Below are positions 774-11,160 of a stretch of 64,000 bases of DNA, in pieces. The stretch's first letter is position 1; every line of letters begins with the position of its first letter. Location of the stretch: positions 1 through 64,000 of the forward strand of contig CAMDHY010000006.1 in assembly GCA_945898215.1 (NCBI GenBank), given 5' to 3'. Source of the DNA: Pseudoxanthobacter soli DSM 19599. GTDB lineage: Bacteria; Pseudomonadota; Alphaproteobacteria; Rhizobiales; Segnochrobactraceae. The translations under genes were made by a program, and so were the position numbers. The notes under the pieces were generated by a model. The model saw only the letters and a list, made by a program, of their open reading frames with translations. It searched no databases and was not told the DNA's origin.

Positions 774-1652
774 ATGGTCGACCACACCGGTCCCGAAATC
801 GACGCCGCCACCGGCGTCTCCACCACCGGCCACGAGTGGGACGGCATCCGCGAGCTCAACAATCCGCTGCCGCGCTGGTGGCTGTGGATCTTCTACGCCT
901 GCATCGTCTGGTCGGTCGGCTACTGGGTCGTCTATCCGAGCTGGCCGCTGGTCTCGGGCTATGCCGGCGGCGTGCTCGGCTGGTCGTCTCGGGAGTCCGT
1001 CGACGTGGCGCTCGCCGCCCTCCAGGCCCAGCGCGGCGCCACCCTGCAGCGTCTCGCCGAGACCCCCGTCGAGCAGGCGAACGCCGACCCGGCCCTGCTC
1101 GCCTTCTCCCAGGCCCTCGGCCGCGCCGCCTTCGCCAACAACTGCGCGCCATGCCACGGCGCCGGTGGCGGCGGCGCCCGCGGCTACCCGAACCTCGTCG
1201 ACGACGAGTGGCTGTGGGGCGGCTCGCTGGCGCAGATCCAGCAGACGGTCACCCACGGCGTCCGCAACGCCGACCCCGACAGCCGCCAGGGCGAGATGCC
1301 GGCCTTCGTCCGCGACGGCCTGCTGCCGGCCGAGGAGGTCCCGATCGTCATCGAATACGTCCGCCAGATCGCCGGCCTCGACGTCCTGCCCGACGCCGAC
1401 CTCGCCAAGGGCAAGGAGATCTTCGAGGCCAACTGCGCCTCCTGTCACGGGGCCGAGGGCCATGGCAACCAGGAGCTCGGCTCCCCGAGCCTCGTCGATC
1501 CGATCTGGCTCTACGGCTATGACCGCAAGGACATGACCGAGACCATCCGCAACGGCCGCGGCGGCGTCATGCCGACGTGGGTGGAGCGGCTCGACCCGAC
1601 CACCATCAAGGCTCTGACGATCTACGTACACGCCCTCGGTGGCGGCGCCTGA
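774..1652 (+). CDS. ccoP: cbb3-type cytochrome c oxidase subunit III, diheme (CcoP/FixP)
   Basis: A 292-residue diheme cytochrome c subunit. An N-terminal cytoplasmic stretch with the WDGIRELNNPLPRWWLWIF motif leads into one membrane helix (about residues 34-54). Two periplasmic cytochrome domains follow, with heme motifs CAPCH at 124-128 and CASCH at 221-225. In the family it receives electrons from the bc1 complex or soluble cytochrome c. The length matches the usual 285-300 residues. It closes the ccoNOQP transcription unit and is followed by 75 noncoding bases containing a strong hairpin before ccoG. Confidence 0.97.
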   Translation: MVDHTGPEIDAATGVSTTGHEWDGIRELNNPLPRWWLWIFYACIVWSVGYWVVYPSWPLVSGYAGGVLGWSSRESVDVALAALQAQRGATLQRLAETPVEQANADPALLAFSQALGRAAFANNCAPCHGAGGGGARGYPNLVDDEWLWGGSLAQIQQTVTHGVRNADPDSRQGEMPAFVRDGLLPAEEVPIVIEYVRQIAGLDVLPDADLAKGKEIFEANCASCHGAEGHGNQELGSPSLVDPIWLYGYDRKDMTETIRNGRGGVMPTWVERLDPTTIKALTIYVHALGGGA

Positions 1653-1727: not shown

Positions 1728-3215
1728 ATGACCGCCATTGTCGTCGACCACCGCAAGGGCAAGGCTGGCCCGGGTCCGGCCGAGCCGCCTCCGGGCGACG
1801 ACGCGCCGCTCTACGAGGCGCGGCGCAAGATTTATCCGCAGTCCGTCTCCGGCACCTATCGCCGGGTGCGCTGGATCGTCCTGCTCGTCACCCTCGGCAT
1901 CTACTACCTCTTGCCGTTCGTGCGCTGGAACCGCGGCCCGAATGCCCCCGACCAGGCGGTGCTGATCGACCTGCCGGCGCGGCGGTTCTACTTCTTCTTC
2001 ATCGAGATCTGGCCGCAGGAGATCTACTTCTTCACCGGCCTTCTGATCCTCGCGGCGATGGCGCTGTTCCTGATGAACGCGCTCGCCGGCCGGGTCTGGT
2101 GCGGCTACCTCTGCCCGCAGACGGTGTGGACCGACCTGTTCCTGGCGATCGAGCGCCTCTGCGAGGGTGACCGGCGCGAGCGGATGCTGCGCGATTCCCA
2201 CCCGCTCAACGCCGAGGGCGTCGCCCGCAAGTCCGCCAAGCACCTGCTCTGGCTCATCACCGCCTGGTGGACCGGCGGCGCCTGGGTGCTCTACTTCGCC
2301 GACGCGCCGACGCTGGTGGTGGAACTCGCCACCGGCGAGGCGCCGCTGATCGCCTATGGCGCGATCGCCACGCTCACCTTCACCACCTACAGCCTCGCCG
2401 GCCTGATGCGCGAGCAGGTCTGCCTCTACATGTGCCCGTGGCCGCGCATCCAGGCGGCGCTGACCGACGAGGACGCCCTCAACGTCACCTACCGTGTCGA
2501 CCGCGGCGAGCCGCGCGGCTCCCTGAAGAAGGCCGCCGCCCTGCGCGCCGCCGGCGAGCCGGCGGGCGACTGCATCGACTGCGGCCAGTGCGTCGCCGTC
2601 TGCCCCACCGGTGTCGACATCCGCGACGGTGCCTCGCTCGGCTGCATCCAGTGCGGCCTCTGCATCGACGCCTGCGACACCGTCATGCGCCGCGTCGGCC
2701 AGCCCGAGCGGCTGATCGCCTATGACACCGATCTCAACATCCAGCGCCGCCTGCGCGGCGAGCCCGAACAGGTCCGGCTCGTGCGGCCGCGCACCATCCT
2801 CTACAGCGCCATCATCCTCCTCGTCGGCGGCATCATGGTCTATGCGCTCGCCGTCCGCAGCCCGGTCGGCATCGCCGTCCAGCACGACCGCAACCCGGTG
2901 GCGGTGACGCTGTCCAACGGCGACATCCGCAACGGCTACGCGCTGCGCCTCGTCAACAAGGCGGCGGTCGAGACCACCTTCCTCGTCACCGTCGCCGGCC
3001 CCGCCGACGCCCGCCTCGACATCGTCGGCGGCACGGCGGAGGCGGGCGGCGCCGTCAGCGTCACCGTCGGCCCCGACCAGACGCGCGAACTGCGCGCCCT
3101 CGTCACCGCCACGCCGCTGCCTGGCAAGGAGACGTCGGTGCCCGTCGCCTTCCGGGCCATCGACGCCGTCACCGGCATCACCGCCACCGTCGACGACACC
3201 TTCCGGATGCCGTGA
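1728..3215 (+). CDS. ccoG: Cytochrome c oxidase accessory protein CcoG (RdxA/FixG family)
   Basis: A 495-residue membrane iron-sulfur protein of the CcoG/FixG family, implicated in copper reduction during cbb3 maturation. It has N-terminal membrane helices and a conserved GRVWCGYLCPQTVW motif. Two 4Fe-4S ferredoxin motifs follow: C282-x2-C285-x2-C288-x3-C292-P and C306-x2-C309-x2-C312-x3-C316. A further helix near residue 355 precedes a C-terminal Ig-like FixG domain. An upstream start at 1692 is in frame, but the ATG at 1728 follows a TGGAGA element and matches the family's N-terminus. The stop is just before ccoH. Confidence 0.96.
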   Translation: MTAIVVDHRKGKAGPGPAEPPPGDDAPLYEARRKIYPQSVSGTYRRVRWIVLLVTLGIYYLLPFVRWNRGPNAPDQAVLIDLPARRFYFFFIEIWPQEIYFFTGLLILAAMALFLMNALAGRVWCGYLCPQTVWTDLFLAIERLCEGDRRERMLRDSHPLNAEGVARKSAKHLLWLITAWWTGGAWVLYFADAPTLVVELATGEAPLIAYGAIATLTFTTYSLAGLMREQVCLYMCPWPRIQAALTDEDALNVTYRVDRGEPRGSLKKAAALRAAGEPAGDCIDCGQCVAVCPTGVDIRDGASLGCIQCGLCIDACDTVMRRVGQPERLIAYDTDLNIQRRLRGEPEQVRLVRPRTILYSAIILLVGGIMVYALAVRSPVGIAVQHDRNPVAVTLSNGDIRNGYALRLVNKAAVETTFLVTVAGPADARLDIVGGTAEAGGAVSVTVGPDQTRELRALVTATPLPGKETSVPVAFRAIDAVTGITATVDDTFRMP

Positions 3216-3223
3216 GGACCATC

Positions 3224-3763
3224 ATGCCCACCGCCCTTCCGCTCGACGCACCGCCCCCCGTTCCCCGCGAGCGCCGGCTCACCGGCCGCGTCGTGCTTGC
3301 GAGCCTCGTCGGCTTCTTCCTCGTCGTCGCAGGCGCCAATGCGGTGATGATCACGGTGGCGCTGACCACCTTCGGCGGGGCGCGCACCGATTCCTCCTAC
3401 CGCGCCGGCCAGCGCTACGCCGCCGAGCGGGCGGCGATGGAAGCCCAGGACGCCCTCGGCTGGACCGTCGATACGTCCCTGATGACGACCGTCTCGACTG
3501 CCGATGCCAGCGCGCCGGAGCGCGTGATCACGGTGACGGCAGTGGACGCCGACGGCCTGCCCCTCGCGGGACTGGTGGCGACGGTCCGGCTCGAGCACCC
3601 AGCCGATACTCGCCGCGACATCGTGCTCGACCTGGCCCCCGCGGGCGCCGGCGCCTTCAGTGGGACGGTCAATGCTGCCCACGGCCAGTGGGACCTCGTC
3701 GTCGAGCTCGCGCGCGACGGCGCCCCGACCTTCCGCTCGACCCGCCGGATCTACGCCCCATGA
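3224..3763 (+). CDS. ccoH: FixH/CcoH cbb3 oxidase assembly protein
   Basis: A 179-residue protein with a single N-terminal membrane helix (ASLVGFFLVVAGANAVMITVAL) followed by the FixH-type periplasmic domain, including the family-typical SSYRAGQRYAAERAAMEAQ stretch. CcoH helps assemble the cbb3 complex and interacts with the copper ATPase. The chosen ATG lies nine bases after the ccoG stop, with GAGG upstream; a GTG at 3212 overlapping that stop is an alternative. Its TGA overlaps the ATG of ccoI (ATGA), implying translational coupling. Confidence 0.94.
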   Translation: MPTALPLDAPPPVPRERRLTGRVVLASLVGFFLVVAGANAVMITVALTTFGGARTDSSYRAGQRYAAERAAMEAQDALGWTVDTSLMTTVSTADASAPERVITVTAVDADGLPLAGLVATVRLEHPADTRRDIVLDLAPAGAGAFSGTVNAAHGQWDLVVELARDGAPTFRSTRRIYAP

Positions 3764-6042
3764 CCACGGCCGTCGCCGCCGCCCCGCCGCCCCCGGGCGG
3801 CGCCGACCCGTCCGCCTTCGTGCGGCGGCGGGCGGACGGTGGCGCGCGGCTGGAACTCGTGCTCGAGCATGCCGACTGCGCCGCCTGCGTCGTCGACGTC
3901 GAGGCGGTGGCGGCCGCGGTTCCCGGTGTCGCCTCGGCGCGCCTCAACGTCACCGACCGCCGCCTCGCCGTCGACTGGCAGGGCGACGCCGTCGATCCCG
4001 GCGGTCTCGTGCGCGCCCTCGCCGATGCCGGCTACGAGGTCCACCCCTTCGAGCCGGGGCGGCCGGAGGCGGCGGAGGCGCGCGAGATGCGCCGCCTCGT
4101 GCGCGCGCTCGCCGTCGCCGGCTTCGCGGCGATGAACGTCATGCTGCTCTCGGTTTCGGTGTGGGCCGGCAACGCCTCCGACATCACGCCGGAGACGCGC
4201 GACCTCTTCCACTGGATCTCGGCCCTGATCGCGCTCCCGGCCGCAGCCGTCGCCGGCGAGCCGTTCTTCACAAGTGCTGTTGCCGCTCTGCGCCGCCGCA
4301 CCACCAACATGGACGTGCCGATCTCGATCGGCGTCTGCCTCGCCCTCGGCGTCTCGGTATACGAGACCGCCACCTCCGGCCATCACGCCTATTTCGACAG
4401 CGCCCTGATGCTGTTGTTCTTCCTGCTCGCCGGCCGGGTGCTCGACCAGGCGATGCGCCGGCGCACCCGGGCGGCGGCCGCCAACCTCGCGGCGCTGCAC
4501 GCCGAGACGGCGACCCGCCTCGACGCCGACGGCACGCTCACCGCCGTGCCGGCGCGCCTGCTCGTCCCCGGCGACGCCGTGCTGGTGCGGCCGGGTGAGC
4601 GCGTCCCGGCCGACGGCGTGGTCGAGGTCGGCCTCGGTGCCCTAGACGAGAGCGGGCTTTCCGGCGAGACGGCACCGCGCCGCGTCGGGCGTGGCGACCG
4701 CGTCCACGCCGGCGCGCTCACTCTCGATGCGGCTCTCACCGTGCGCGTGCGGGCGAGCGGGGCCGACACCTTGCTCGCCGAGATCGAGCGGCTGATGACG
4801 GCGGCGGGCGAGCGGCGCGGCGCCTATGTCCGCCTCGCCGACCGTGCCGCCCGCCTCTACGCACCAGTGGTGCACGTCACCGCCCTCATCGCCTGCCTCG
4901 GCTGGCTCGCCCTCGGCGCCTCGCTGCATGACGCGGTGCTGATCGCGGTCGCCGTCCTCATCATCACCTGCCCGTGCGCGCTCGCGCTCGCCGTGCCGGC
5001 CGTGCAGGTCGTCGCCGCCGGCGCCCTGTTCCGCCGCGGCGTGCTGCTCGCGAGCGGCGACGCGCTGGAGCGCCTCGCCGCCGTCGACACCGTCGTCTTC
5101 GACAAGACCGGGACGCTCACCCTGCCGGAGCCGCAGCGCCTCGCCGTCGTCGCGGACGGGCCGGACGACGCGCTCGTTGCGCTCGCCGCGCGGCTGGCGC
5201 TTTCGAGCCGCCACCCGCTCGCCGCCGCGGTGGCCGGCGCCGCCGCGGGACTCTCGCCCATGGACGGTGTCACCGAGGAGACCGGCCGCGGCGTCCGCGC
5301 CGTCGTCGACGGCGAAGACGTCCGCCTCGGCAGCCCCGCCTTCTGCGACGCCGAAGCCCTGGCGGCGACGGCGCGCGCGGCCCACCCGACTGCCTCGCTG
5401 ATCGCCGTGCGGGCGGGGGAGCGGACCGCGGTGTTCGCGGTGCCGCAGACACTGCGGGCCGATGCCCGCAAGACGGTCGCCGATCTCGTCGCCGCCGGTT
5501 TCGACGTTCGCATCCTCTCCGGCGACCGGCCGGAAGCGGTGGCGCCGGTCGCCGCCGCCCTCGGCCTCACCGATGGCGTCGCCCAAGGCGGCCTGACGCC
5601 GGCCGACAAGGTGGCGGCGATCGCCGCGCTGCGCGCCGCCGGCCGGCGCGTGCTGATGGTCGGCGACGGTCTCAACGACGCGCCGGCACTGGCCGCCGCC
5701 GACGTCTCGCTCGCGCCGGTGACGGCGGTCGACCTCACCCAGGGCATGGCCGACGCCGTCTATCTCGGCCGCGGCCTCGGCCCGGTGGCGGAGACGCTGG
5801 CGATCGCCCATCGCGCCCGCCGCCGCATGGTCGAGAACCTCGGCCTCGCCGTCGTCTACAACCTGATCGCCGTGCCGCTCGCCGTCGGCGGCTTCGTGAC
5901 GCCGCTCGTCGCCGCGCTGGCGATGTCCGGCTCGTCGCTGCTGGTGACGGTGAATGCGCTGCGCGACCGCGCCGCCGCGCCGCCGCGGGCGGCCGCGCCG
6001 GCCCGGCCGGTCGCCCGCATCGCCGGGGAGGCGCTGCCGTGA
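3760..6042 (+). CDS. ccoI: Copper-exporting P1B-type ATPase (CcoI/FixI)
   Basis: A 760-residue heavy-metal P-type ATPase that delivers copper across the inner membrane for cbb3 biogenesis. An N-terminal metal-binding domain carries a CAAC site in place of the usual GMxCxxC context. Membrane helices follow, then the TGES-like dephosphorylation loop (SGLSGETAP), the intramembrane CPC motif at 404-406, the phosphorylation site D448-KTGT, the ATP-binding SSRHP motif and the hinge GDGLNDAPAL. The start overlaps the ccoH stop. Operon position separates it from general copper-efflux ATPases. Confidence 0.96.
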   Translation: MTTAVAAAPPPPGGADPSAFVRRRADGGARLELVLEHADCAACVVDVEAVAAAVPGVASARLNVTDRRLAVDWQGDAVDPGGLVRALADAGYEVHPFEPGRPEAAEAREMRRLVRALAVAGFAAMNVMLLSVSVWAGNASDITPETRDLFHWISALIALPAAAVAGEPFFTSAVAALRRRTTNMDVPISIGVCLALGVSVYETATSGHHAYFDSALMLLFFLLAGRVLDQAMRRRTRAAAANLAALHAETATRLDADGTLTAVPARLLVPGDAVLVRPGERVPADGVVEVGLGALDESGLSGETAPRRVGRGDRVHAGALTLDAALTVRVRASGADTLLAEIERLMTAAGERRGAYVRLADRAARLYAPVVHVTALIACLGWLALGASLHDAVLIAVAVLIITCPCALALAVPAVQVVAAGALFRRGVLLASGDALERLAAVDTVVFDKTGTLTLPEPQRLAVVADGPDDALVALAARLALSSRHPLAAAVAGAAAGLSPMDGVTEETGRGVRAVVDGEDVRLGSPAFCDAEALAATARAAHPTASLIAVRAGERTAVFAVPQTLRADARKTVADLVAAGFDVRILSGDRPEAVAPVAAALGLTDGVAQGGLTPADKVAAIAALRAAGRRVLMVGDGLNDAPALAAADVSLAPVTAVDLTQGMADAVYLGRGLGPVAETLAIAHRARRRMVENLGLAVVYNLIAVPLAVGGFVTPLVAALAMSGSSLLVTVNALRDRAAAPPRAAAPARPVARIAGEALP

Positions 6043-6070: not shown

Positions 6071-6283
6071 GTGACCGTCCTCCTGGTGCTCGTGCCGCTT
6101 GCGCTGCTCCTCGGCCTTGCCGGGCTGTTCGCCTTCCTGTGGTCGCTGCGCTCCGACCAGTATTCCGACCTCGACGGCGCGGCGGTCAGGATGCTCGCCG
6201 ACGACGACCTCGCCGACACCGCCGTGCCCGCCGCCCGCCGTGCCGCACCGGTACGCGTGGCCTCGGGGGAGCAGAAGCGGTGA
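6071..6283 (+). CDS. ccoS: cbb3-type oxidase assembly protein CcoS (FixS)
   Basis: A 70-residue protein starting at a GTG, with GAGG eight bases upstream. One N-terminal helix (VLVPLALLLGLAGLFAFLWSL) is followed by the hallmark CcoS tail RSDQYSDLDGAAVRMLADDD. CcoS is needed for cofactor insertion into the cbb3 catalytic subunit. It lies 28 bases after ccoI, and its TGA overlaps the GTG of the next gene, an MFS transporter, so both probably share the ccoGHIS mRNA. Confidence 0.95.
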   Translation: MTVLLVLVPLALLLGLAGLFAFLWSLRSDQYSDLDGAAVRMLADDDLADTAVPAARRAAPVRVASGEQKR

Positions 6284-7470
6284 GCCTCGCCTCCGACCCC
6301 GGCCACAGCCGTCTCGGCGCGAGTCGGCCGGACGACGGCGGGCCGGATCAGGTACGCCCCGGGCGCCTCGCCTGCCTCTGTCCGCCGCTCGGTGCCTTCA
6401 CGCGCACGGGCGCCGCCGGGGCGGTCGCCCTCGTCACCGGCGCCGGCTTCGCCTGCCTCGCGCAGGTGCTCGTCTACGGCACGCTGCCGCTCGCCGGCGC
6501 GCTGCTGTCGCGCGACGTCGTCGAGGCGTCGCTGCCGATGGCGGCGTGCCTCGCCGGTGCCGTCCTCGCCAGCCTGCCGGGCGCCTTCCTGATGGACGCC
6601 TTCGGCCGCCGCGCCGCGCTTGCCACCGGCGCGAGCCTCGGCGCCGCCGGCGGCACCACGGTCGCCGTCGGCCTCCTCGCGCTGTCGCTGCCGGTGGTCC
6701 TCGTCGGGGCCTTCTGGCTCGGCGTCGCCCAGGGCTTCGCCATGCTCTACCGCCACGCCGCAGCGGCAGGCGACGGGGATCGCCGTCGCCAGGTCGCCGC
6801 GGTGCTTGGCGTCGGCGTCGCCGCGGGTCTCGCCGGCCCGGCCCTCGCCACCTTCGCCGAGGGCCTCGTCGCGCCGTTCACCCTCGTCGGCGCCGCGCTC
6901 GCGGCGGCGCTCGCGAGCGTCGGCGCGCTCGCCGCGGCACTGGCCGAGCCCACGGCGCCCCCCGCCGCTGCGCCTTTGGCCTCCGCCGGGGCACCGGCCC
7001 GGGGCGCGCCCGCCGTGCCGCTGTTCGACACCCGCTTTCTCGTCGCGACCGCGATCGGCGTCGTCGCCTGGGCGACGATGGCCTCGGCAATGACGCATGC
7101 GCCGATGGCGCTGGTCGATTGCGGCGTCAGCGCCGCCGCCACCTATGGCATCGTCGCCTGGCACGTGGTCGCCATGTACGCGCCGGCGGCGGCGATCGGC
7201 CTGTTCGGGCTGCGCATCGCCCCGGTCGTCGCCGCCGGAGCCGGTCTCGCCCTCCTCGCCGCCGCGTTCGCCGCGACGGCCCTCTTCGCGCCGATCGCCG
7301 GCGAGATTTCGCGGCTGATGCTGGTGGGCGCCGGCTGGTCGCTCGCCACGCTCGGCGCGACGCTGATCCTGCACGCCGGTCCGCCGCCGCGCCGGCTGGT
7401 GCTGGCGCTCCACGATGGCGCCCTGCTCACGGCGGCGCTGCTCGCGGCGCTGTTCGGCGGTCTCTTCTGA
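6280..7470 (+). CDS. MFS transporter with CcoA copper-importer signature
   Basis: A 396-residue MFS protein with about 12 hydrophobic segments and a motif-A-like loop (MDAFGRRAAL). It begins with a GTG overlapping the ccoS stop, so it is coupled to the cbb3 assembly genes. In the second half two motifs are visible: M267-x3-M271 and H295-x3-M299. The 24-residue distance between M271 and H295 equals the spacing I recall for M233xxxM237/H261xxxM265 of CcoA, the MFS copper importer required for cbb3 activity in Rhodobacter capsulatus. The copper role is therefore inferred from both motif and context. A general drug or sugar MFS role is the alternative. Confidence 0.8.
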   Translation: MSLASDPGHSRLGASRPDDGGPDQVRPGRLACLCPPLGAFTRTGAAGAVALVTGAGFACLAQVLVYGTLPLAGALLSRDVVEASLPMAACLAGAVLASLPGAFLMDAFGRRAALATGASLGAAGGTTVAVGLLALSLPVVLVGAFWLGVAQGFAMLYRHAAAAGDGDRRRQVAAVLGVGVAAGLAGPALATFAEGLVAPFTLVGAALAAALASVGALAAALAEPTAPPAAAPLASAGAPARGAPAVPLFDTRFLVATAIGVVAWATMASAMTHAPMALVDCGVSAAATYGIVAWHVVAMYAPAAAIGLFGLRIAPVVAAGAGLALLAAAFAATALFAPIAGEISRLMLVGAGWSLATLGATLILHAGPPPRRLVLALHDGALLTAALLAALFGGLF

Positions 7471-7593: not shown

Positions 7594-7989
7594 TCAGCCG
7601 GCGACGGCGAGGGCGAGGCGGATGCCGTCCGACAGCGTCGAGCCGAGCAGCGGCTTCTCGACGATCGGCACGCCCGCCGCGGTCGCCCGGCGCAGAACGG
7701 CCGCGGTCGGTGCGCTGGTGATCAGGATCGCCGGAATCTCGACGCGGCGCGCCCGCAGCCGGTCGATGACCGACAGCCCGTCGCGTCCGGGGATGTGGAA
7801 ATCGACGACGAGGCAGCCGGCGACCGGCAGCGTCGGGTCGGACAGGATGGCGTCCCCGTCCGCATAGGTGCGCACCCGGTACCCCTCGACCTCGAGGGAG
7901 AACCGCAGGCTGCCGAGCACGTCAGGATCGTCGTCGACGACGAGGACGATCGGGGCTGCCTCGTCTGTCGGGCTCGCGTCGGTGATCAT
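7594..7989 (-). CDS. Single-domain response regulator, FixT-like candidate
   Basis: A 131-residue stand-alone CheY-type receiver. The acidic pocket (D20/D21), the phosphoacceptor D63 in VVDFHIPG, the conserved T/S (TSAP, residues 91-94) and K112 in EKP are all present; there is no output domain. It lies directly downstream of fixJ on the same strand but has its own perfect FixK box (8065-8078). In Caulobacter a FixK-controlled single receiver, FixT, dampens FixL; the layout suggests the same role here, which is inference. It ends convergently with the cbb3-linked MFS gene. Confidence 0.85.
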   Translation of the reverse strand: MITDASPTDEAAPIVLVVDDDPDVLGSLRFSLEVEGYRVRTYADGDAILSDPTLPVAGCLVVDFHIPGRDGLSVIDRLRARRVEIPAILITSAPTAAVLRRATAAGVPIVEKPLLGSTLSDGIRLALAVAG

Positions 7990-8064
7990 GGCCGGAACCC
8001 GTGGCAGCGCGCCGCGAAGGTCGACGGTCGCAGCATCACATTGCAGGACGAGGCGTGGCGCGCG

Positions 8065-8078
8065 TTGATGTCGATCAA
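8065..8078 (-). promoter_or_regulatory. FixK/FNR box upstream of the single-receiver gene
   Basis: TTGAT-N4-ATCAA, a perfect match to the FixK/FNR/Anr consensus. Its centre is 82 bases upstream of the receiver-gene ATG, in the 98-base gap after fixJ. If it works at the usual -41.5 position, the transcript would have a leader of about 40 bases. A FixK encoded 2.4 kb away is the obvious ligand. Confidence 0.8.
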
Positions 8079-8087
8079 TCCGGGCAG

Positions 8088-8735
8088 TCAGGCGGGCGGT
8101 TCGGCGGAGACGACGCCCGCCGCCAGCGCCAGCCGGACGAGGTGGGAGAGACTGGTCGCCTGGGTCTTCGTCATCAGGTTCGCCCGGTAGACCTCAACGG
8201 TGCGCGGGCTGATGCCGAGCTGTCGGGCGATCGTCTTGTTCGAGCTGCCCGCCACCAGCCCGTCGAGCACCTCGCGCTCGCGCGGCGACAAGCCGGTGAA
8301 GCGCAGGCAGGCCGATGCCTGCTCGGCGGTCGAGCGGCCGCCGCCGCCGTCCTGGCCGCGGCGCGTCTCGACGAGGGCGGTGCGCACGGCGTTGATCAGG
8401 GCGTCGTCGCGGTAGGGCTTCTCGAGGAAGTCGTGCGCCCCCGCCTTCATCGCCTCGACCGCGAGCGCGATGTCGCCGTGACCGGTGATGACGACCACCG
8501 GCACCGTCGCACCGCGCTCCCGCAGCGCCTGCAGAAGCTCGATGCCGGTCATGCCGGGCATGCGCACGTCGGTGACGATGCAGCCCCGCACCGCGGCCGA
8601 ATCCACGTGGGCGAGGAATTCGTCGGCCGACGGATGGCCGGTCGCCGTGATCCCCTCCGTCTCCAGCAGGAACAGCAGCGAATCGCGCGCGGCATCGTCG
8701 TCGTCGATGACGTGGACCGTGGCGTCAGGACCCAT
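8088..8735 (-). CDS. fixJ: Oxygen-response regulator FixJ
   Basis: A 215-residue two-component regulator: receiver domain (about residues 5-120, acidic D11-D14, phosphoacceptor D56, K in EKPY) and a LuxR-type DNA-binding domain (about 148-200, LSPREREVL and [15 protein letters not shown]). It matches FixJ over its full length. Its start overlaps the fixL stop by 11 bases, so the pair is translationally coupled. Phosphorylated FixJ typically activates fixK, which lies just beyond fixL in divergent orientation. Confidence 0.96.
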
Positions 8736-10296
8736 CGTCGCGCATCTCCTGTGCCGCTTTGAGGGTGAATCCGAACCGTGTGCCGCCGCTCGCGCCGGGC
8801 TCCGCCCAGATCGAGCCGCCGTGCGCCTCGACGATGGTACGCGAAATCGACAGGCCGATGCCCAGTCCCTGTGCCTTCGTCGTCGCGAAGGGCTGGAACA
8901 GCCGTTCGGCGATCTCCGGGGCGAGGCCGGACCCGGTGTCCGTCACCGTCACCGCCACCAGGCCGTCGTCGCCGGGTGCCGTGGCGATCGTCAGGTCGCG
9001 CCGTGGCGATCCCTCCATCGCCTCGACGGCGTTGCGCACCAGGTTGAGCAGCACCTGCTGCACCTGCACCTTGTCGGCGACCACCCACTCGTAGGCCGGA
9101 TCGAGGTCGAAGCGGACCCGCACGCCGTGTTCCTTGGCGCCGACGAGGGCGAGCGCGCTCGCCTCCTCGATCAGCTTCGGCAGGTGCTCGACACGCTGTT
9201 CCGTCTCGCCGCGCTCGACGAAGCCGCGCAGGCGGCGGATGATCTCGCCGGCGCGCAACGCCTGGGCGGCGGCCTTGTCGACGGCGCCGCGCAGGCGCTC
9301 CGCCTGCGGGCTGTCGTCGCCCTCCAGCAGCCGCCGCGAGCCCTTCAGGTAGTTGGCGATCGCCGACAAGGGCTGGTTGAGCTCGTGGGCGAGCGTCGAG
9401 GCCATTTCGCCGAGCGCCGTCAGCCGCGAGACGTGGACGAGCTCCGCCTGCAACTCCTGCAGCCTCGCCTCGGTGCGCTGGCGTTCCGTCAGGTCGCGCA
9501 CGAAGCCGGTGAAGAAGCGGCGGTCGCGCGAGCGCATCTCGCCGACGGCGAGTTCCATCGGGAACGTCGAGCCGTCGCGCCGTGCACCGACGACGACCCG
9601 GCCGATGCCGATGATTCGTCGCTCGCCGGTGTCGAGATAGTGGCCGACATAGCCGTCGTGGGCGGCGCGATGCGGCTCCGGCATCAGCACGGAGACGTTG
9701 CGGCCGATGGCGTCCCTGGCCTTCCAGTCGAACAGCCGCTCCGCCGCGACCGAGAACTCCTGCATGACGCCGTGCTCGTCGATGACGATCATCGCGTCCG
9801 GCACCGTCTCGAGGATCGACCGCAGATGCGCCTCGCGGTCCTGCAGTGCGGTCGTGCGCGCCTCCGCATCGGCGCGCGAGCGGTTCAGCCACTCGCCGCC
9901 GATGGCGAGGCCGCTGCCGATCGCCGCGAAGGCGATCGCCTCCAGCAGGTCCGGCGTCGAGGCCGGCATCGCCGACATCGCCAGCCCCGCGGCGAGGCTC
10001 AGCGCCGTCGCCAACGCCCCCGGCCAGAGCCCGCCGTAGCCGGCGGCGATCAGGACGGCCGGGACGAAGAACAGGAAAGGGGAGCGGCCTTCGAGGACCG
10101 GCTCGAGCACGAGGCGGAAGGCCGCCGTGGCGGCGACGATGGCGACCGCGCCGCCGAGCTTCGTCGCGGCCGAATCAAGGCCGGCGCGCAGCGGCCATGC
10201 CGCGCCGACGCCGGTGCGCTGGCGGGCGGGCGGCTCGCGTTGGGGTTGTAAGCCCCATCCGCCGGATGGAGCATCGCCGTGGGGGCCGTCCGCCAT
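8725..10296 (-). CDS. fixL: Heme-PAS oxygen sensor histidine kinase FixL
   Basis: A 523-residue sensor. It has hydrophobic segments near residues 47-135 (membrane anchor), a PAS domain (about 155-275), then HisKA and HATPase domains. The heme-pocket text is clear: H213 in the AAHDGY motif corresponds to the proximal heme histidine of FixL, and R233 ends the IIGIGR motif that contacts bound oxygen. The phosphorylation box is TLAHELNQP with H304; N and G boxes follow ([24 protein letters not shown]). The ATG at 10296 is preferred over far-upstream in-frame starts, which would run into fixK. Confidence 0.95.
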
Positions 10297-10381
10297 CTTC
10301 ACGGGAGCACCACTAGCCTGTTGGTCCGGCGGGCACCATGCGACGCGGCGGCCGGCCCGCCGCCGGACGCCTCCGGTAGAA

Positions 10382-10398
10382 CCCTTAAGGGATATCCC
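10382..10398. promoter_or_regulatory. Overlapping palindromes in the fixL-fixK intergenic region, possible FixJ site
   Basis: Two 10-bp perfect palindromes overlap by three bases, CCCTTAAGGG (10382-10391) and GGGATATCCC (10389-10398). They lie 79-95 bases upstream of the fixK start in an otherwise GC-rich divergent spacer. FixJ sites are poorly conserved, but the TTAAG...TCCC arrangement and position make this the best candidate operator here. Assignment is inference. Confidence 0.4.
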
Positions 10399-10476
10399 GT
10401 TCGGGGAGCCAACGGAATTTCGCCGGCCGCCGGCAACCCGTAGGTCGGATGCACGGACCTCTCGAGGAGACGAGCC

Positions 10477-11160
10477 ATGCACGGACTGAGCGTCTCGACC
10501 CCGCCGACCGACCTCCGCCCCCTCACGCGGAGCGCGGCGTCGCAACCGCTCGTCCACCTCGCCGACGGCCTCGACCTGCCGGGCGTCGCCATGCCGTTCC
10601 TGCGCAACGAGGAAATCTACGGCCAGGACGAGCCGGCCGAGTTCGTCTACCGCGTCCTTTCCGGCACCGTGCGCACCTGCCGCCAGCTCGCCGACGGCCG
10701 CCGCCAGGTCGAGGCCTTCCATCTGCCCGGCGACGTCTTCGGGCTCGAGTGCGGCGCCGTCCACTACGCCTCGGCCGAAGCCGTCGGCGACTGCGAGGTC
10801 GCGCTTGTGCGGCGCGCGGCGGTCGAGAGCGCGGCCCACCGCGACGGCACCGCCGCCCGTGCCCTCTGGCTGCTGGCGACCGGCGATCTCGAGCGCGTCC
10901 GCCGCCTGACCCTGACGCTCGCCCGCAAGGGTGCCACCGAGCGGGTCGCGAGCTTCCTCCTCGCCATGGCGGCCCGCAGCGAAGGCGACGTCGTCGATCT
11001 GTCGATGTCGCGCAACGACCTCGCCGACCACCGCGGCCTCACCATCGAGACGGTGTCGCGCACCTTCACCCAGCTCGAGCGGTGCCGGATGATCGCGCTG
11101 CCGTCGCCGCGGCGTGTCGTGCTGCGCGACCGCCGCGCGCTTGCGGCGCTGGACGGCTGA
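10477..11160 (+). CDS. fixK: CRP/FNR-family transcription regulator FixK
   Basis: A 227-residue CRP/FNR-superfamily regulator: N-terminal cyclic-nucleotide-binding-like barrel (about 30-140) and a C-terminal helix-turn-helix ([21 protein letters not shown], about 175-196) nearly identical to FixK/FnrL recognition helices. It lacks the N-terminal cysteine cluster that holds the FNR iron-sulfur center, so its activity is probably set by FixJ-driven expression. AGGAG lies upstream of the ATG. The likely targets are FixK boxes such as the one at 8065 and, presumably, ccoN outside the window. Confidence 0.92.

Follow-up and report, generated by a model that had tools for sequence, protein, structure and literature searches.

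Background

CcoA-like transporters (CalTs) are MFS proteins, and both copper transport and the role of the Met and His residues are known from published work on CalTs other than the one described here. In CcoA of Rhodobacter capsulatus (cluster 1), which has 12 helices and whose gene lies outside the cco operon, the residues in question are M233, M237, H261 and M265, together with C247 (PMC8406296). For the onward path of imported copper from CcoA-type proteins to CcoI and the CuB site of the cbb3 oxidase, a CcoA-CcoI complex has been proposed, partly from the linkage of their genes described next (PMC5829832).

In 2018 a group of Rhizobiales CcoA-like proteins was described that keep both the MxxxM and the HxxxM motif, lack a predicted helix 12 and have their genes immediately after ccoNOQP and ccoGHIS; the discussion of that study suggested that they work with the assembly genes and possibly interact (PMC5829832). 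The group was named cluster 11B in 2019 and described as the only example of a calT adjoining cbb3 biogenesis genes (PMC6362234). The same paper dealt with the RfnT-like CalTs, which were first named for riboflavin from their gene neighbours and which import copper, with riboflavin not efficiently transported. Three other CalTs imported copper in Escherichia coli but gave no cbb3 rescue in an R. capsulatus strain without ccoA (PMC6362234); import by itself is thus no proof of a role in cbb3 assembly.

The calT gene and its neighbours

The window is the whole stretch of 64,000 nt that was analysed (Pseudoxanthobacter soli DSM 19599, contig CAMDHY010000006.1, positions 1 to 64,000). A ccoO-like frame (1-601) is cut by the first base of the contig and is followed by ccoP, ccoG, ccoH, ccoI, ccoS and calT (Table 1). 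A sequence-only reading of this DNA had noticed an MFS gene whose start codon overlaps the ccoS stop and whose product carries M267xxxM271 and H295xxxM299, with 24 positions from M271 to H295. We find the GTG at 6280 lying over the TGA at 6281-6283 and all four residues in these places in the product of 6280-7470. The cbb3 assembly operon probably ends with calT, whose translation would be coupled to that of ccoS. The same reading had proposed that copper import and the CcoI exporter are co-expressed; this is likely, because the coupling of calT to ccoS is conserved in other Hyphomicrobiales. There are two COX1 genes in the genome, one of which, on a short contig (C209, 297-1592), may be the missing ccoN.

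Table 1. Features of the cbb3 assembly genes and of calT (window coordinates)
Feature	Position	Strand	Evidence or remark
ccoP	774..1652	+	FixP_N and Cytochrome_CBB3 (Pfam)
ccoG (start inferred)	1728..3215	+	Fer4_18 and FixG_C (Pfam)
ccoH	3212..3763	+	FixH (Pfam, 1.8e-29)
ccoI, P1B-type ATPase, N-terminal HMA (CxxC at residues 40-43)	3760..6042	+	Pfam; motif search
ccoS	6071..6283	+	FixS (Pfam, 3.9e-18)
calT (ccoA-like) MFS gene	6280..7470	+	396 aa, GTG start, 11 predicted transmembrane helices
GTGA, 4 nt overlap of calT start and ccoS stop	6280..6283	+	ccoS stop TGA at 6281-6283
Codons of C32-x-C34, N-terminal tail before TM1	6373..6381	+	Clade-invariant, none in ordinary CalTs
H159 codon, predicted cytoplasmic end of TM4	6754..6756	+	Clade marker; helix limits from AlphaFold model
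M267xxxM271 in TM7	7078..7092	+	Aligned with CcoA-type M233/M237; model helix 251-280
C281 codon, TM7-TM8 loop	7120..7122	+	Aligned with CcoA-type C247
H295xxxM299 in TM8	7162..7176	+	Aligned with CcoA-type H261/M265; model helix 285-309
H378 codon, near predicted cytoplasmic end of TM11	7411..7413	+	Clade marker

Family assignment and structure model

Pfam gave only a weak general MFS_1 match for the window protein, below the cut-off. The genome has about 30 MFS genes, and a search of it with the window protein at E<=10 returned a single match, a CalT paralogue on contig C125 (L002; 36% identity, E 3.7e-30) that covers nearly the whole length of the window protein; identity to ordinary CalTs as a group is about 30-36%. 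This paralogue is of the ordinary (RfnT-like) type. It has the same four ligands and the loop Cys but, unlike the window protein, is full length, has a hydrophobic stretch at the C-terminus that accounts for TM12, lacks CxC and lies on another branch of the tree; its gene adjoins thiL-like and nusB-like frames, whereas the window calT adjoins cco genes.

As a stand-in for R. capsulatus CcoA we used a Rhodobacteraceae CcoA-type protein (L216) with 14 of the 16 published CcoA residue positions, Rhodobacteraceae proteins of this type being recognised by up to 14 of these positions. M267, M271, H295 and M299 of the window protein align one-to-one with M233, M237, H261 and M265, and C281 aligns with C247; the R. 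capsulatus numbers given in the sequence-only reading are correct (PMC8406296). In contrast with the window protein, R. capsulatus CcoA has no N-terminal CxC tail, and the CcoA-type protein compared has F and N at the positions of H159 and H378.

In the tree the ccoS-linked proteins form one clade (support 100) that falls with the ordinary CalTs and is separate from most of the genome's other MFS genes, although two outgroup sequences on very long branches were misplaced among the ordinary CalTs and the position of the root is uncertain. The linked clade sits on a long branch. The six Rhodobacteraceae proteins group together as a separate clade within the ordinary CalTs and not with the window protein, which belongs to the linked clade. 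On these comparisons the window protein is a CalT. Grouping with CcoA and not with other MFS families, which the sequence-only reading had named as support for its view, is seen at the level of CalT/CcoA in the CalT-only match in the protein's own genome and in the tree; its nearest relatives are not R. capsulatus-type CcoA but a separate, shortened clade. The sequence-only view of a copper importer built into the cbb3 assembly operon is well supported. A sequence search of the PDB gave no close relative, and a plasmid collection yielded one partial match, in Methylovirgula.

The AlphaFold model of the window protein (pLDDT 85.6, pTM 0.84) has 11 long helices; the Met pair falls in helix seven and the His/Met pair in helix eight, and this is where the sequence-only reading had expected a copper importer to carry them. 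Structure comparison matched many MFS chains (best Z 27.5), which identifies the MFS fold but leaves the substrate undecided. The tail bearing the CxC is modelled with low confidence. TM12 is absent: 97 residues follow the HxxxM motif, compared with 132-147 in ordinary CalTs.

The ccoS-linked clade

A FixS/CcoS gene is present in 302 of 397 genomes of the order. The linked type of calT is found in the window genome and in six others, so with only seven of the 302 ccoS genomes carrying it, most cbb3 makers of the order do without a linked calT. The six best relatives in the 397-genome survey are 38-48% identical to the window protein, and all six are encoded directly downstream of ccoI-ccoS. 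A scan of named genomes added at least 80 linked loci; the hosts among the matches listed are Ancylobacter, Microvirga, Bosea, Chelatococcus, Methylocystis, Methylocella, Methylocapsa, Rhodoblastus and Beijerinckiaceae. Also among the matches listed, cbb3 assembly genes adjoin calT in every linked locus, and the calT start overlaps the ccoS stop by exactly 4 nt in 74 of the 84 linked loci with ccoS in view. In all but one of the remaining ten a possible calT start lies no more than 12 nt away; the exception has a broken frame.

The linked loci were found by short peptide patterns, one of them spanning the HxxxM region, and the set also required both motifs, so the conservation of all four membrane ligands throughout the clade is partly by construction. 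The patterns lie outside the N-terminus, H159 and H378. The 35 weakest relatives in the scan fall outside the set, and exceptions to the clade features may exist among them. In Microvirga members (L059, L063, L064 and others) the stretch between MxxxM and HxxxM is shorter by one residue; the exact motif spacing is therefore not strict within the clade. In Microvirga aerophila (L099, about 3970-4100) there is a break in the calT frame close to the N-terminus, and the upstream frame has Arg in place of the second Cys, which points to either a pseudogene or a sequencing error. Separately, in a different order of the class, the gene of an ordinary CalT (L164) is preceded at a distance of about 700 nt by a same-strand match to a CcoI-like ATPase, perhaps an independent linkage.

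The window gene lies directly after ccoGHIS, as in cluster 11B (PMC5829832 Fig. 1B; PMC6362234), and its product shares with that cluster the MxxxM and HxxxM motifs, the shortened C-terminus without helix 12 and the placement in Rhizobiales/Hyphomicrobiales. The likeness to the 12 published members is to their published description, not to their sequences, and no difference is established. Because it fits each published feature of cluster 11B, the window gene is a further member of a known group, whose operon-linked arrangement is already published (PMC5829832, PMC6362234).

Clade-specific residues

About 80 ccoS-linked members were compared with 76 ordinary CalTs, 82 linked sequences being aligned. 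The number of residues after HxxxM is 87-102 in the linked proteins and 132-147 in the ordinary ones, with no overlap between the ranges, and the extra C-terminal part of ordinary CalTs has the high average hydrophobicity to be expected of TM12. An N-terminal RxGxxxCxC is present in all intact linked members among the matches listed, including one (L121) that at first appeared to be without CxC. C32 and C34 are invariant in the 82 aligned linked sequences, and this CxC occurs in none of the 76 ordinary CalTs. H159 is found in 82 of 82 linked proteins but only two ordinary ones; H378 is in 80 of 82 against two of 76, the ordinary CalTs otherwise having N.

From the standard MFS topology and the predicted helix ends, the N-terminal tail would face the cytoplasm, as would the end of TM4 and the beginning of TM11. 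The CxC motif has a recognised role in Cu(I) trafficking (PMC7558416). The term CxC does not appear in the main text (figures and supplements aside) of PMC5829832, PMC8406296 or PMC6362234, and for cluster 11B the main text searched makes no mention of the signature of CxC, H159 and H378, though others may have seen it before.

The N-terminal CxxC of CcoI is kept in at least 64 of 72 linked operons. The CalT CxC would thus be an addition and not a replacement for a lost CcoI CxxC, and the proposed donor and acceptor sites are both present.

Proposed function

We consider it probable that calT encodes a CalT-type MFS copper importer of the Rhizobiales ccoGHIS-linked group (cluster 11B), with copper import suggested by homology to CalTs whose transport has been tested. 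Periplasmic copper would bind M267, M271, H295 and M299 in TM7 and TM8, exit into the cytoplasm by way of H159 and H378, reach C32xC34 of the N-terminal tail, and be handed to the HMA domain of CcoI, which would pump it back out for the CuB site of CcoN. The hand-over from CxC to CcoI is suggested by residue conservation alone. More tentatively, the linked clade as a whole may be an importer-to-pump relay, in which a Cu(I) exit site made up of the cytoplasmic CxC and the two His residues docks with the CcoI HMA domain, no free cytoplasmic copper arises and the loss of TM12 is part of the specialisation; we regard this fuller scheme as possible but doubtful. The conserved CxC, H159 and H378 are named residues with which importer-to-pump transfer could be tested in culturable genera such as Ancylobacter and Microvirga.

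The ordinary CalT in the same genome could itself be the importer. The linked protein would then be a non-transporting copper-binding partner or scaffold of CcoI, with the Met/His site kept, TM12 lost and a CxC tail acquired. The absence of TM12 from the whole linked clade, its long branch and the presence of a full-length ordinary CalT in the window genome all fit such a role. However, the four membrane ligands are kept and a transporter fold is predicted with confidence. In addition, three of the six survey relatives (G078, G237 and G311) have no second CalT match at the threshold, with few candidates scored per genome. We therefore think a scaffold unlikely.

Less likely still is transport of another substrate, for example riboflavin, with the motif kept by descent. 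Metal specificity cannot be read from sequence alone, and the original naming of the RfnT-like CalTs for riboflavin from their neighbours (PMC6362234) would favour it, but those proteins turned out to import copper and not riboflavin efficiently (PMC6362234), and the neighbours here, in every linked locus among the matches listed, are copper-handling cbb3 assembly genes.

A chance likeness of the Met/His spacing in an ordinary drug or sugar MFS protein, to which the weak MFS_1 match and the modest identity to ordinary CalTs might point, is refuted by the CalT-only match over nearly the whole length, by the tree with linked orthologues that keep the ligands, and by shuffling of the window protein: of 200,000 trials, 11 reproduced the double motif at its exact spacing and 88 had both motifs with a spacing of 20-28. 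The CalT paralogue is the only other MFS locus of the genome with the spaced double motif.

Regulatory genes downstream of calT

Downstream of calT (7594-11160) lie a single-domain receiver gene (7594-7989), a LuxR-type response regulator and a PAS histidine kinase, all on the minus strand, and a Crp/Fnr regulator on the plus strand (Pfam). The arrangement resembles fixT/fixJ/fixL/fixK, and the Fix names would follow from this resemblance. The receiver gene is preceded, 76 nt upstream, by a perfect FNR/FixK-type palindrome, TTGATGTCGATCAA (8065-8078; expected number 0.19 when up to one mismatch is allowed).
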